Positions 3,401 through 9,400 of a stretch of 64,000 nt of DNA are shown in pieces (positions within the stretch are counted from its first letter, which is position 1; the number at the start of each line of letters is the position of its first letter). Position numbers and translations under genes: made by a program. Source of the DNA: Owenia fusiformis (lineage: Eukaryota; Annelida; Polychaeta; Sabellida; Oweniidae); contig CAIIXF020000007.1 in the NCBI GenBank assembly GCA_903813345.2, positions 31,545,564 through 31,609,563 on the forward strand, read 5' to 3'. Below the pieces are notes generated by a model. The model was not told the DNA's origin, made no database searches, and worked only from the letters and a program-made list of their open reading frames with translations.

Positions 3401-6400
3401 TTATTACAGTCCGAGAAGATCTTTCCTGACGAAATACCCACATTATGAAAACAATTGTACATCTTCTTATAAGTATAAGTATACGTTATAAGTTGTATTT
3501 TACGTATGTGCGAAATCTCTCTAATCTTTAGAAACAGCATTAAAGGAATATTCCTAGCCAGACCATTTTTCTCCTAATATGGTAGCTATAACCATATATA
3601 TACATTCCATATTTAGCAAAACAGGGAAAAATGTTTTGATATGGTCAATATTGATCACTTGAAAATGTAGTGCCGGATTCCAGTAGGCTGCCATCTTTTT
3701 ACTCAGGAAGTGATGTCATCGACTCTCAACTTACTTTGCATTTATAACACTATAAGGAACTATTATGAATTACAAAACTAGCTGAATATTCTTTTTCAAT
3801 TTTGTCTATGATTTAATCCTTCTAAAAGTCTCTTCTTTTATTCTAAGCTGACAAGCTCTGAACATATTTTTGCGCATAAAGTAAGGATCACTCGTCTAGA
3901 AGTGATATTGTGCTATTTTCCTATACTGTTATATGCAAAATTGAGAGTCGATGACATCACTTCCTGAGTAAAATCTTAAAAGATGGCAGCTTACTGGAAA
4001 TGAGCACTACATTTTTAAATTATCAGTATTGACTATATTAAAACATTTCCCCATGTTTTGCTAAATATAAAAAGTATATATATGAGTATAGCTATCACAT
4101 CAGGAATGAAAAGGTTTGGCCAGGAATGTTCCTTTAAGTAATGTCTGCGCGAGTATTCTATATAGTGATTATTGTGTGTATAAAAGAATGCCGATGGTTA
4201 ACTTGCATATTGATTGTTTTCTCACATGTTAAATGAAATATAATACTTTTGGGGGCATGTTTTGTTTGACGTTTGGAGAGGTTGCAAAACACGAATCTGT
4301 GACTGCACAACCAATGCCATCAGAATGCCTCTGTTCTTAGAACACTCAAGACATGAAAGTCAACACTTGAGTCGCCTTCAATAGCAATTCGTCATTTTTC
4401 TCAGTGTTTACCTTTGTACCACTTGTAGTAACACCTTCAGATTTGTCAAAGTCACACACAACAAAAGCCAAAAGGTAAGTAGGCATTATAACTGTTGTTT
4501 GGTAGACATCTGCCTTTAGGCCACCAGCTCTAAAAACACAATTAAACCTTACATTGTAAATATTTGTTAGTTCAAGAAGTCAAGTACATCCTTCATAGCT
4601 GTAATAGATTTTTTTCTAAAGTTATGAAACTCCAAATTTTGCAAAAGTAAAAACAGACATACCTAGTTATATTTATTATTTTTGCTATATGTATGCTTTA
4701 CCTTACCTTCTTCTAAGGCCACTATATCGTGACCTTCGTCCAAAGATAAATCCCTGCATGTTTTTACTGCTGCATACTGGTCATGTCGTAATCATATAAT
4801 TTGAAATCAAATGTTTGCCATTTTCCACATCACAATTTGAATTGCGAGTTGGTCTTATCACCTCACCAAAAATTCCAAAACACACATGAAGTGATCAATG
4901 AATTAGTTCACATCTTCTGGATCGCTAACATGTATTTTATTGCGTTTGAGTCACGTAGTACGAATTAGCAAGAAAATGATTTCTATTTGGTCGTTTAACG
5001 TTATGAAAATAGAACGGTATTTGTGAATGCAGTATTACTGAGTAAACGGTGTATGTATTCGTGAATAAGATCACTTCGGCTCTAAGCGGCGAGATAAACG
5101 GACGTTAGTTACTACCAACTCATAATCGTCACCTTGAAAATAATACGGCCATGCAGGCACAAGCTTACTGAAGGAATTCTCGGAAACAAATCCCAACAAA
5201 CGGAAAATAAAATGAAGCTAAGAATAATCACTCTAAAACAGAAAAACTTTCTATCAATTCAAAGAAAAACAACACAATTTGGAAGAAAAATGGGCACAAA
5301 CAACAGTCCTATGCATGGTTTGTTGTCTTTGTAATAAAATAAGATTGAGTAAAAATGTTTGAAAAGTACATATACTGGTTTTCAGTGGCTACCAAGTCAC
5401 TCAATGAAAAACGACAACTTGTGCATCCAGAGTTAAGACAGCTTAGAGAAGCTTCCGGGTGTGATTTAGGCAGCAAAGCCACAAGCACAATAGGGTCATA
5501 CGGCAGTGCTTTCGACAGATGGTCAACGTGGGTAAACAATTGCCCCGAAGTATGTATTTTATCAGCTAAGACATGATTTTTGAAAATCATTGACATTAGA
5601 CAGTAGTGGAATCAGCCTAACGAACACTAGCGAAACCGACTTCTAATAAACACACATTTACAACATAAATAATACAATTTTTTTATCAGATCACATGTTA
5701 ATTCAGATTTGTTTAAAATTTGAGTTTACATTTATCATTAGCTCTTGGTTTAGCAAGGTTTTCTCAGATTTGATGATATTTGTCATATTAGAAATTCAGA
5801 CTGTCGTTTTATGACACTAATATTTGTATCAATATAAGTTATTTAAAAACAGTATATAAGAAGGTAGCAAGTGCGTCATTGTAGCAACATGCTCAGATTT
5901 TTGTCCAGTAACTTTATAATATAAGACGGTTTAAAGTAACTTTCTATGATTTCATCTAAAAATTAAAACCTTTGGAAATACTAAATATGGTTTAAATGCC
6001 ATATATAAAATTTATTTCAGAAATAGTGTGGATCAAAATGAAAAAAAAACAAAAATAAAGAATAAAAACATATTCCACCTATGGGATTTGAACTCAGATC
6101 TTTTGGAATAAAAGTCTGCTTGGGTCCTAAGCCCTAACCACTACACCACAGTGCCAAAGCTTTCTGAGAGAAGAAATTCTTTATCTATATAATCATGGAT
6201 GAAAAAAGTCTTATTTAAATGGTTAAATTTCTTAAAAATGATCAGAATTACTACTAATAACAACATTTTGCATGTCTAAGTAAGTATTATGATCTACATT
6301 TAGGATAAATGTTGTTTTATTCAGTTTTCATTTTGGGTATGACTTCCTGTCAAAATAGTGTTAAAAATGCAGGGCTCAACAAAAATTTTCAATTAGAAAA

Positions 6401-9400
6401 TGATATATATCCTTTGATCAGCTGTTTTTGGTACCTGGACTCATCCTACTAGAAAGGTAAGACCATTTTCTTGAGACATATGGCTCGAAATCTCAAATTT
6501 CTCCTTCCAAGTCATAGAAAGACACTTTAATAGAAGCAAACATAAGCAATGGAAATTCGTTTTTAGAGCAATTTTATATCACACAATCATATGTGTTCAA
6601 GTTTAGTGATAAAGCTATAAGCTACACAAGGTGCAGATAAGTTATTGTAAAGGCATTTAAGTCATGTGGTGACATGATACGTTGTTGAGAACGCAATATT
6701 TAAGACCCCGCGGTGCAACAAGGGCTGCAAAGAAAGGCATTTCAGATAGGAGACTGTGAAAAATGGTTTTATCCAGCACACGTTAAAAAAAGGATTAATT
6801 GTTTCAAAGAATTTAGGATTATAATTATAAAACCTGTATTTTAAGAATCTTACTCAACAGTTTATGTAAATGTCTGTGCTTAATAATCAATATAAATTTT
6901 CGCTTACTTTAACACTTCACGCAGCCGCAGAGCCACATGCTAGTAAATGTTATGTTTCTTAAGTGTAAGTTAGAATAGAAATGTATTTTATTGCGTTTGA
7001 GTCACGTAGTACGAATTAGCAAGAAAATGATTTCTATTTGGTCGTTTAACGTTATGAAAATAGAACGGTATTTGTGAATGCAGTATTACTGAGTAAACGG
7101 TGTATGTATTCGTGAATAAGATCACTTCGGCTCTAAGCGGCGAGATAAACTAAGTAAATGTCTTTAAAATGTAATGAAAATTTTTCGGACAAACCTTTTT
7201 CCTTTAACCTAAATTGTTGAGGATTTCAAAGATTTTTAGCATCATGTTCTCAACAGAATAATAATGGGCATTAATGAGTGTGTGATGCTAAAGATAGAAA
7301 AGGTTTTACAGGTGGTCGGAAATTTTTTAATTTTGAAAATGAGTTTTGTTATTGCTACATTATCGAGTAAGCTAATCAATTGTCCATTATAAACATTTTT
7401 GTATATTTTCCAGCGGCGACGCAGCCGCAGAGCCACATTTTGGCAACCAGCATGTACATACGATAACATTATTGTACAAATAATACACTCGGTTTTTCTG
7501 CAGCACGCAGCCGCAGAGCCACATGCTAGTAAATGTTATGTTTCTTAAGTGTAAGTTAGAATAGAATTAGAATTTACAGCCAGTTACTAATGTCAGACAA
7601 TAACGACATTTCGTCCAGTTTTCAAATATCGCCATTTTTCTTGGAGCCGTTTATTTTTTAATTTTAGACGAAATCCTGACGAAATCATGCAATATCTCAT
7701 CAAGCAGCCCAGCCAGTTCCATTTTAATTCATGATTTATTTATCTGGCGATTTTTAAAAAATGTTTAATAAATTAATAACACGACGGCCAGCTTTTTTTC
7801 AAATGGTTCACTGTGTTCCAGATGAAATAACTTCTAGCAAAGAATTAGCTATATAGAGACTCGAGTAAGCTTTACCTATTCTCTGTCTGTTTGATTTCCA
7901 TATTTGACAATGAGACCATTGCTTCTTTCCTCACAAGTGTGATATCGAAGGTTGATTTCACCCCAGGTTCATCAAAACAGGGAAAAGCCCTTCTAGTATC
8001 AGTCGGTTGAAACTGGGTGGTGGCAAGGTACCTAAGATACATGGAATAATGGTTACTCGTGAAAATTAGGGTCTTCCAGCTATACAATGACGTAATGACC
8101 CAGAAGTTGTAAATTCCTTATCTAGTGTGCGATAGCGGCTGTAAGCTTTACTTCATGCGAACTGATGGCTTTTCTTCATACGAATCGAAGTAAATCGCGA
8201 CTCATTTCAATTGATTTACTAACCCTACTATCACACCAAACTAGTTCTCACTACGTTCTCGAAAACGGGCTTCAACTGTGTACGAACGGACTGGACCTAC
8301 TAAGAACCGTTTGGGATCTATTTACAAACTTCATCGAACGTACTCGAACGGGTAGGTCCTCTAGAACTTAGACAATGCTCAAAATGTTCTCGTGGTCGTC
8401 ACGTTCTACAATTAGAACGAGTGACAACGTACTAACGACGAGCTGGACGTACTACGAACGGAACCGTCGTACTTCAATCCTACTAGGGACGTTTTAACAA
8501 CGAGTTGAACTGTCTGAGGACGTGTTGAGAACGGGGTAGAACTAATTGCAAACGGGTTTAAACTGATTAAGAACGTATTTAACACTGCTTATGAACGAGT
8601 TAGCAAAAATATAGTTATCACACCAAACAAGTTGCCACTGCGTTCTTCAAAACTGGTTTTAAACTGTGTGCGAACGGAATGAACGTAACTGCAACTTTCT
8701 AAGGTCTATTTACGAACTTTATGAACGTTCTCAGACGGGAAGGTGATTTTAGAATTTTGAATCGATTCAAAATTCGATGGCGACCATACCGTTCTTTAAT
8801 CAGGTCATGTTGACCTTCTAGACTAAAGGACGCGTTCTACGACGTTGCACATCGACGTGGTGCGACCTGAATGAACTGCGAACGAGATGGACGTATTGAA
8901 GACTGTTTAAGAACGAAGAAGCTTATTATTTCAGACATATTTCCCGACCACAGCCAGATTGAGCCCGTTTTACGACGTTTTCGTAGGACTGGCAAGAACG
9001 GGTAAGAACTAGTTTGGTGTGATAGGGGGGTAACCCTACTATCACACCAAACTAGTTCTCACTACGTTCTCGAAAACGGGCTTAAACTGTGCACGAACGG
9101 ATTTGACGTACTAAGAACTCACTAAGAACCGTTTGGGATCTGTTTACGAACTTCATGAAACTACTCGAACGAGTAGGTCCTCCAAAACTTAGAGCATGCT
9201 CAAAATTTTCTGGTGATTGTCAAGTTCTGCAATCAGAACGAGTGACAGCGTACTTAAGACGACCTGGACGCACTGGGGACACACTACGAACGGAAGTGTC
9301 GTACTTCAATCCTACTAGGGACGTATTACGACGTTGTGTAGTCAGGCGTAAATTGCAGCCGTGAGTACCGCAATCAGGCAAATAGAGGGATTATAAAGGC

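Follow-up and report, generated by a model that had tools for sequence, protein, structure and literature searches.

A probable non-autonomous, internally deleted Pat1-like (PAT) retrotransposon copy in Owenia fusiformis, with its siblings and coding relatives

A stretch of 64,000 nucleotides from the annelid Owenia fusiformis (contig CAIIXF020000007.1, positions 31,545,564 to 31,609,563; hereafter the window) holds at positions 4930-7566 an element marked by four repeat blocks, A1, B1A2 and B2, and by little recognizable coding sequence. The locus raises the question of what kind of element this is and how it could have been inserted recently without working genes of its own. Very probably, the element is a young copy of an echinoderm-form Pat1-like retrotransposon (PAT, order DIRS) that is non-autonomous and has undergone internal deletion.

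Self-comparison of the window found A1 (4930-5099) and A2 (6981-7150) to be identical at 170 of 170 bp, and B1 (6919-6980) and B2 (7505-7566) to be identical over 62 bp, all four blocks lying on the plus strand. B1 directly abuts A2, giving the order A1..B1A2..B2 along the element, with A1 and B2 as the left and right terminal halves of a split direct repeat. This block order and the identity of both pairs had been described in the first-pass annotation and are confirmed, with one correction: the 63 bp given there for B become 62 bp, since A2 already begins at the 63rd base counted for B1. The B1-A2 junction reads GAA followed by ATGTATTT, has similar counterparts in three coding relatives (L021, L022, and L023), and is presumed to be the image of a circle junction. 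The spacer between A2 and B2 (7151-7504, plus strand; termed mid) contains a third occurrence of a 20-bp piece from the start of B (7419-7438), and a 3' non-coding stretch (6531-6918, plus strand), 88-92% alike in the siblings L001-L009, precedes B1. The terminal repeats are direct and not inverted, and a DIRS1-like element, which has inverted terminal repeats, was rejected.

The genome searched comprises 498 Mb in 525 contigs, and all match counts are lower bounds: of the 75, 66, and 80 candidates obtained with A plus 51 bp, B and the A2-B2 stretch, respectively, 40 were scored in each case. Eleven loci matched the left end together with the adjoining interior, and ten of these were read, namely the window and L001-L009 (C4:31535301 was left out). 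The full arrangement A1..B1A2..B2 was present in nine of the ten, while L006 has A1..B only. Because the identical arrangement recurs elsewhere in the genome, it is not a chance association of A and B. The first-pass annotation had named copies with boundaries unlike A1 and B2 as evidence that would tell against it; in the copies examined the outer ends fall on the same bases as those of the window, in unrelated flanks, and are therefore the boundaries of one mobile unit. The distance from A1 to B2 is 5.5 to 8 kb in seven siblings with all repeats and 2.6 kb in L008; the A..B form of L006 measures 4.9 kb. A phage collection gave no match.

The siblings contain the remains of genes which the window copy has largely lost. 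An RT-RNaseH (reverse transcriptase-RNase H) fossil was found in eight of them (L001-L007 and L009), covering 327-454 of 714 residues with the main match beginning at residue 379 in all eight; the match in L008 spans 25 of 714 residues, and no RT-RNaseH match was obtained in the window copy. When the eight were aligned with L017, a relative with an open RT, two in-frame stops were common to all eight and one to seven. Among 11 frame-breaking indels present in at least four siblings, nine occur in all eight, one in seven and one in five. The siblings are 96.5-99.4% alike mutually and ~80% alike to L017. Since these stops and indels are held in common, the source was without a working RT before the copies spread, which implies movement in trans, as had been proposed earlier for a recently inserted, non-autonomous element. 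A decayed autonomous copy which moved by itself and was deleted only after insertion would make movement in trans unnecessary, and the internal deletion of the window copy is indeed not seen among L001-L009. This is very unlikely, however, because the longer siblings already share the RT lesions and have a broken tyrosine recombinase (YR) region, indicating that the source was dead before its copies spread.

Two gene fossils were identified in the window copy itself. The first is an N-terminal gag fossil in a broken frame (5176-5307, plus strand), recognized from tblastn matches of L019 and L024 gag fragments to window 5176-5315 (E = 4e-7 and 2.6e-5, respectively; searched against window 5100-5720). 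The second is an N-terminal (core-binding) YR fossil in an open frame of 73 codons (5355-5576, plus strand), to which the YR of L021 matches at 5373-5588 with E = 1.2e-4 (tblastn), a real but weak match. The earlier view that only a recombinase N-domain is left holds for the domain but not for "only," as a gag fossil was kept too. The YR fragment has no Pfam or NCBIfam hit, and the four hits from a PDB search (E from 0.6 to 1.4) were attributed to chance. Sibling stretches matching this frame are split between frames or contain stops, and among 28 matches listed in a search with the fragment there were only family fossils and no intact close YR. At the internal deletion junction (5307-5308), L001-L009 have ~0.5 to 6 kb, comprising the remainder of gag and the RT-RNaseH fossil plus, in longer siblings, a 24-bp minisatellite; no microhomology was noticed at the junction. 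The minisatellite (GGTACTACAATTCCCCTCATCTCG) lies in L003:2151-2951, between the RT and YR fossils, and repeated peptides resembling its own occur in other siblings, L017-L020 and L024. A splice-acceptor-like TTTTCAG was also noted within the YR frame of the window (pyrimidine-rich CAG, 5372-5384). By eye, such a CAG stands ahead of the YR region in the window copy, L021, and L023, which are divergent from one another, and YR may accordingly come from a spliced RNA.

Longer relatives with RT-RNaseH and an open YR, a search for which had been recommended in the first-pass annotation, were found. L017 and L018 resemble the window family at 87% in A, ~94% in B and ~82% in the spacer. Both contain RT and RNase H in an open stretch of 715 codons, and L017 has a broken YR region. 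L021 has the arrangement A1..B1A2..B2 and encodes gag, an RT-RNaseH that includes a Dam-like domain, and YR in an open frame, and L022 shares this layout with an open YR frame and a frameshifted RT-RNaseH. Within each of these two elements, A1 and A2 (188-189 bp) and B1 and B2 (84 bp) are identical. L023 likewise encodes gag, RT-RNaseH and YR; its A copies are identical over 213 bp and its B copies 94% alike over 98 bp, longer and less alike extents also being found. The open frames of L017 and L021 match the RT family PF00078 (E = 1.5e-17 and 6.3e-15, respectively), and the YRs of L022 (E = 3.3e-6; 27.4 bits against a cut-off of 27.1) and L023 (E = 3.9e-11) match Phage_integrase (PF00589). 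In both of the latter, YR is in direct orientation and upstream of the internal repeats. The gag of L023 contains a zinc knuckle (PF00098) above cut-off and, by eye, that of L021 and L022 a CCHC-type stretch; none was visible in L017, and the window has no intact gag. The assignment to tyrosine-recombinase retroelements is thus upheld, as relatives with the same layout encode YR. A Crypton (YR without RT) was rejected because siblings and relatives contain RT or its fossil. A search of the whole genome with RVT_1 was too broad to be of use.

The earlier label "PAT/Ngaro-like" can be narrowed. All eight RT proteins scanned have a Dam-like methyltransferase match (PF05869) after RNase H, with E-values of 0.0075 for P0003, 3.4e-6 for L023 and 2.1e-4 to 6.7e-7 for the other six. 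A Ngaro-like element would share the split direct repeats described here; in the scheme given for these groups, however, Ngaro elements are without a methyltransferase domain, and the layout of split repeats, methyltransferase-like (MT-like) domain and YR matches that of echinoderm-form Pat1-like elements (PMC4157794). As the relatives carry the Dam-like domain, their layout, as read from sequence, is that of an echinoderm-form Pat1-like (PAT) element rather than of a Ngaro. The PAT half of the label therefore stands, and a Ngaro-like identity is unlikely.

The insertion sites were next compared, each insertion event, as told by its flanks, being represented by a single locus. The dinucleotide immediately preceding A1 (or A in solo forms) was AA at 19 of 21 loci, against a background of 12.2% of dinucleotides in adjoining flanks (235 of 1932; p = 7e-16). 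Excluded from the 21 were L020, L029, L036, L038, L043, and L044 (no readable left A start), L025 (flanks as L014), 14 further loci whose flanks match those of L011, and, as coding families, L021-L023. The B of the element ends in GAA, so AA is common to the donor junction and the target. Related empty sites were available because a several-kb repeat (L011, L012, L013, and L016, ~95-98% alike) carries and has multiplied one solo A-mid-B; both flanks are the same in 15 loci read, and the right flank in three more, as far as the piece read extends. The joined flanks of this repeat-borne solo were found uninterrupted at five sites among 40 scored matches, these being related copies of the larger repeat and not alleles. 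In four of the five, which were read, the flanks are joined without duplication, with GAA or a near variant present once. Two empty sites, L048 (C11:16777350-16777560) and L049 (C1:33923200-33923430), have a diverged family B match at distances of 1.1 and 2.3 kb, and an additional, older insertion of the family may be present elsewhere in the larger repeat.

These sites also bear on whether A and B could be rearranged parts of an ordinary long terminal repeat (LTR), left by an LTR retrotransposon or a nested duplication. It is true that A-mid-B acts like a solo LTR at several loci. However, the left end consists of A without mid-B in 14 copies listed, always with the same boundary, the four empty sites read have no target duplication, relatives of the same layout encode a YR of the Phage_integrase type, and the domain tables of the proteins scanned contain no retroviral-type integrase domain. 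An LTR origin is accordingly extremely improbable.

Repeat copies within an element were found to vary together. In nine copies of the window subfamily, the mean number of differences between A1 and A2 was 0.33 within a copy and 2.0 between copies, and that between B1 and B2 was 0 and 0.56, respectively. A1 and A2 are exactly the same in 10 of 13 copies, including the window, with L002, L008, and L010 differing by 1, 2, and 3. In L007 a private 9-bp deletion occurs in both As, and the variants private to the window copy are likewise present in both of its As. This co-variation, the AA target and the lack of duplication fit templated ends and integration of a circle by YR.

For a Pat1-like family of this kind, the following course can be proposed. 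The family has lost gag, RT, and YR function while keeping A1, B1A2, and B2, and its RNA would be reverse transcribed by the RT of related elements. The internal B1A2 block would serve as template, restoring both ends and joining them as a circle with the B-A junction GAA-ATG. The YR of a related element could then recombine this junction with a genomic AA, leaving no target duplication. For DIRS1-like elements, a short (3-bp) circular junction is described as recombining with an identical genomic sequence, likewise without target duplication (PMC3266345). Later recombination of A1 with A2, or of B1 with B2, would yield solo A-mid-B or A-int-B. The anatomy of the family is well supported, and from the whole we infer the RNA intermediate, the circle, movement in trans and an enzyme donor.

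Several observations weigh against this account. The Dam-like match passes the Pfam curated cut-off in just one of the eight RT proteins. The internal deletion and the nested repeat of the window (see below) are unseen in other copies, and the exact deleted form may never have moved. The window itself has AAC rather than AA before A1, the other exception being L010 (TTA). Four of the 13 A1s are one identical string, which leaves few private variants to bear the case for co-variation. Neither a transcript nor a circle has been observed. Lastly, L021 and L022 share with the window family only the first ~63 bp of A (73%), no forward B match was found, and neither can therefore be named as the actual helper. 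Possible helpers are nevertheless plentiful, as 33 of 121 YR matches listed combine nearly full length with at least 42% identity and the absence of stops (hand count). One candidate, a YR-like frame in L011 (P0001), was dismissed, since it lies ~5.6 kb upstream of a solo without B1 before A, the solo being in a multiplied repeat, and no link was drawn. The frame itself (L011:2-1486) is open over 494 codons and appears by eye to join the end of an RT/RNase H frame to a downstream tyrosine recombinase from another group of elements; it has no Pfam or NCBIfam hit.

Both deletion products were found. A-mid-B without an adjacent B1 occurs in L014 (flanks as L025), L015, L026, L027, L028, and the repeat-borne event. 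No A1 was present in ~7 kb upstream of L014 and L015, and the solo calls for L026-L028 were made from ~120 bp of upstream sequence. The A-int-B form is represented by a single case, L006. Homologous and YR-mediated recombination are indistinguishable here as the origin of the solo forms.

Genes appear to have been lost stepwise among the relatives. L017 and L018, in which an open RT-RNaseH frame accompanies a dead YR, differ at 24 positions in 5842 bp, have no similar left flanks and have identical A1 and A2, from which it follows that they were inserted recently and apart. The same YR stops are present in L017 and L019, the latter being without much of RT. Of the changes between L019 and L017 in the shared RT part, 8 are silent and 3 are replacements (binomial p = 3e-4, simple site count); of those between L017 and L018, 1 is silent and 5 are replacements, with no constraint visible. 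A retained RT, as if under selection, with YR supplied from elsewhere is no more than suggested by these counts. More broadly, it is conceivable, although we would lean against it, that RT and YR of PAT elements can each be lost separately and supplied in trans, with YR acting at the AA-A1, B1-A2, and B2-flank junctions both to integrate the element and to trim it to the two solo forms.

The "tRNA-like SINE head" (short interspersed nuclear element) which the first-pass annotation had credited to the element has to be withdrawn. The stretch sits inside a nested repeat of ~600 bp overall (5931-6530), unrelated to the element and no part of it, with TTAA copies at 5931-5934 and 6527-6530, a body at 5935-6526 and inverted arms at 5931-5952 and 6509-6530. 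This nested repeat occupies 30 other places among 50 matches listed and is absent from L001-L009 by blast coordinates, L001, L003, and L005 having been confirmed as uninterrupted there letter by letter. As the tRNA-like stretch belongs to it and is missing from the siblings, a SINE reading of the element was rejected. Within the nested repeat, ARAGORN made no tRNA call and Rfam gave no tRNA at E up to 1. The sole Rfam match in 5900-6560, snoU36a, scored 19 bits against a gathering score of 45 and was ascribed to chance. A box-B-like GTTCAAATCC, a motif which we take to be that of box B, is visible by eye on the minus strand, and the nested repeat may have a tRNA origin.

Two further loci and one neighbouring region were noted. 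L010 (C361:5000-14900, on a 20-kb contig) contains a ~4.57-kb tandem duplication (99.5%) that takes in the right flank of a diverged member of the family. Insertion of a circle into a copy was considered and rejected, as the repeat unit runs into that flank; the locus thus shows an ordinary tandem duplication or a feature of the assembly. L024 with its downstream piece has A1 and a broken RT, no B1A2 or B2 was found in its 9.4 kb, and it is treated as a relative only. Right beside the element, window 8229-8897 contains several diverged direct repeats of 21-47 bp (families D3-D5).

What is understood of how split-direct-repeat retroelements replicate comes, to our knowledge, mostly from models. 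This genome combines elements with open RT and YR, with RT and a dead YR, with both dead, and in solo form, and it provides sequence tests of the replication model in within-copy co-variation, AA at the target and empty sites without duplication. It is therefore a good system for asking how far such enzymes act in trans, although the kind of element is already known, if little studied, and no claim is made that non-autonomous PAT elements are unpublished. TOC1 of Chlamydomonas is non-coding, with split repeats and solo forms. The window family and SpPat1, an echinoderm-form Pat1-like element, both have the order A1..B1A2..B2 with internal repeats downstream of YR, and the coding relatives resemble SpPat1 as described in their MT-like domain, gag zinc knuckle and direct YR (PMC4157794). 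Unlike Pat1-like elements, the window family has no working gag, RT, or YR, and its longer siblings contain the 24-bp minisatellite. DIRS1-like elements, whose end motifs are reported to be mostly NTT (PMC3266345), have inverted terminal repeats in contrast to the split direct repeats here, the likeness being integration without target duplication. SIRE of Trypanosoma cruzi, a non-autonomous relative of VIPER, is described as corresponding to the stretch with A2 and B2 (PMC6681497). It resembles the solo A-mid-B forms; the present family differs in having longer non-autonomous copies in which A1 and B1A2 are retained as well, and in offering related empty sites. Solo AB repeats, a possible product of recombination between 5' and 3' repeats, are likewise described for Cafeteria Ngaro elements (PMC8547959). 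These resemble the isolated A-B units of O. fusiformis, but they belong to Ngaro elements in a flagellate host, whereas here another repeat has multiplied one solo that it carries, and L006 represents an A-int-B product.

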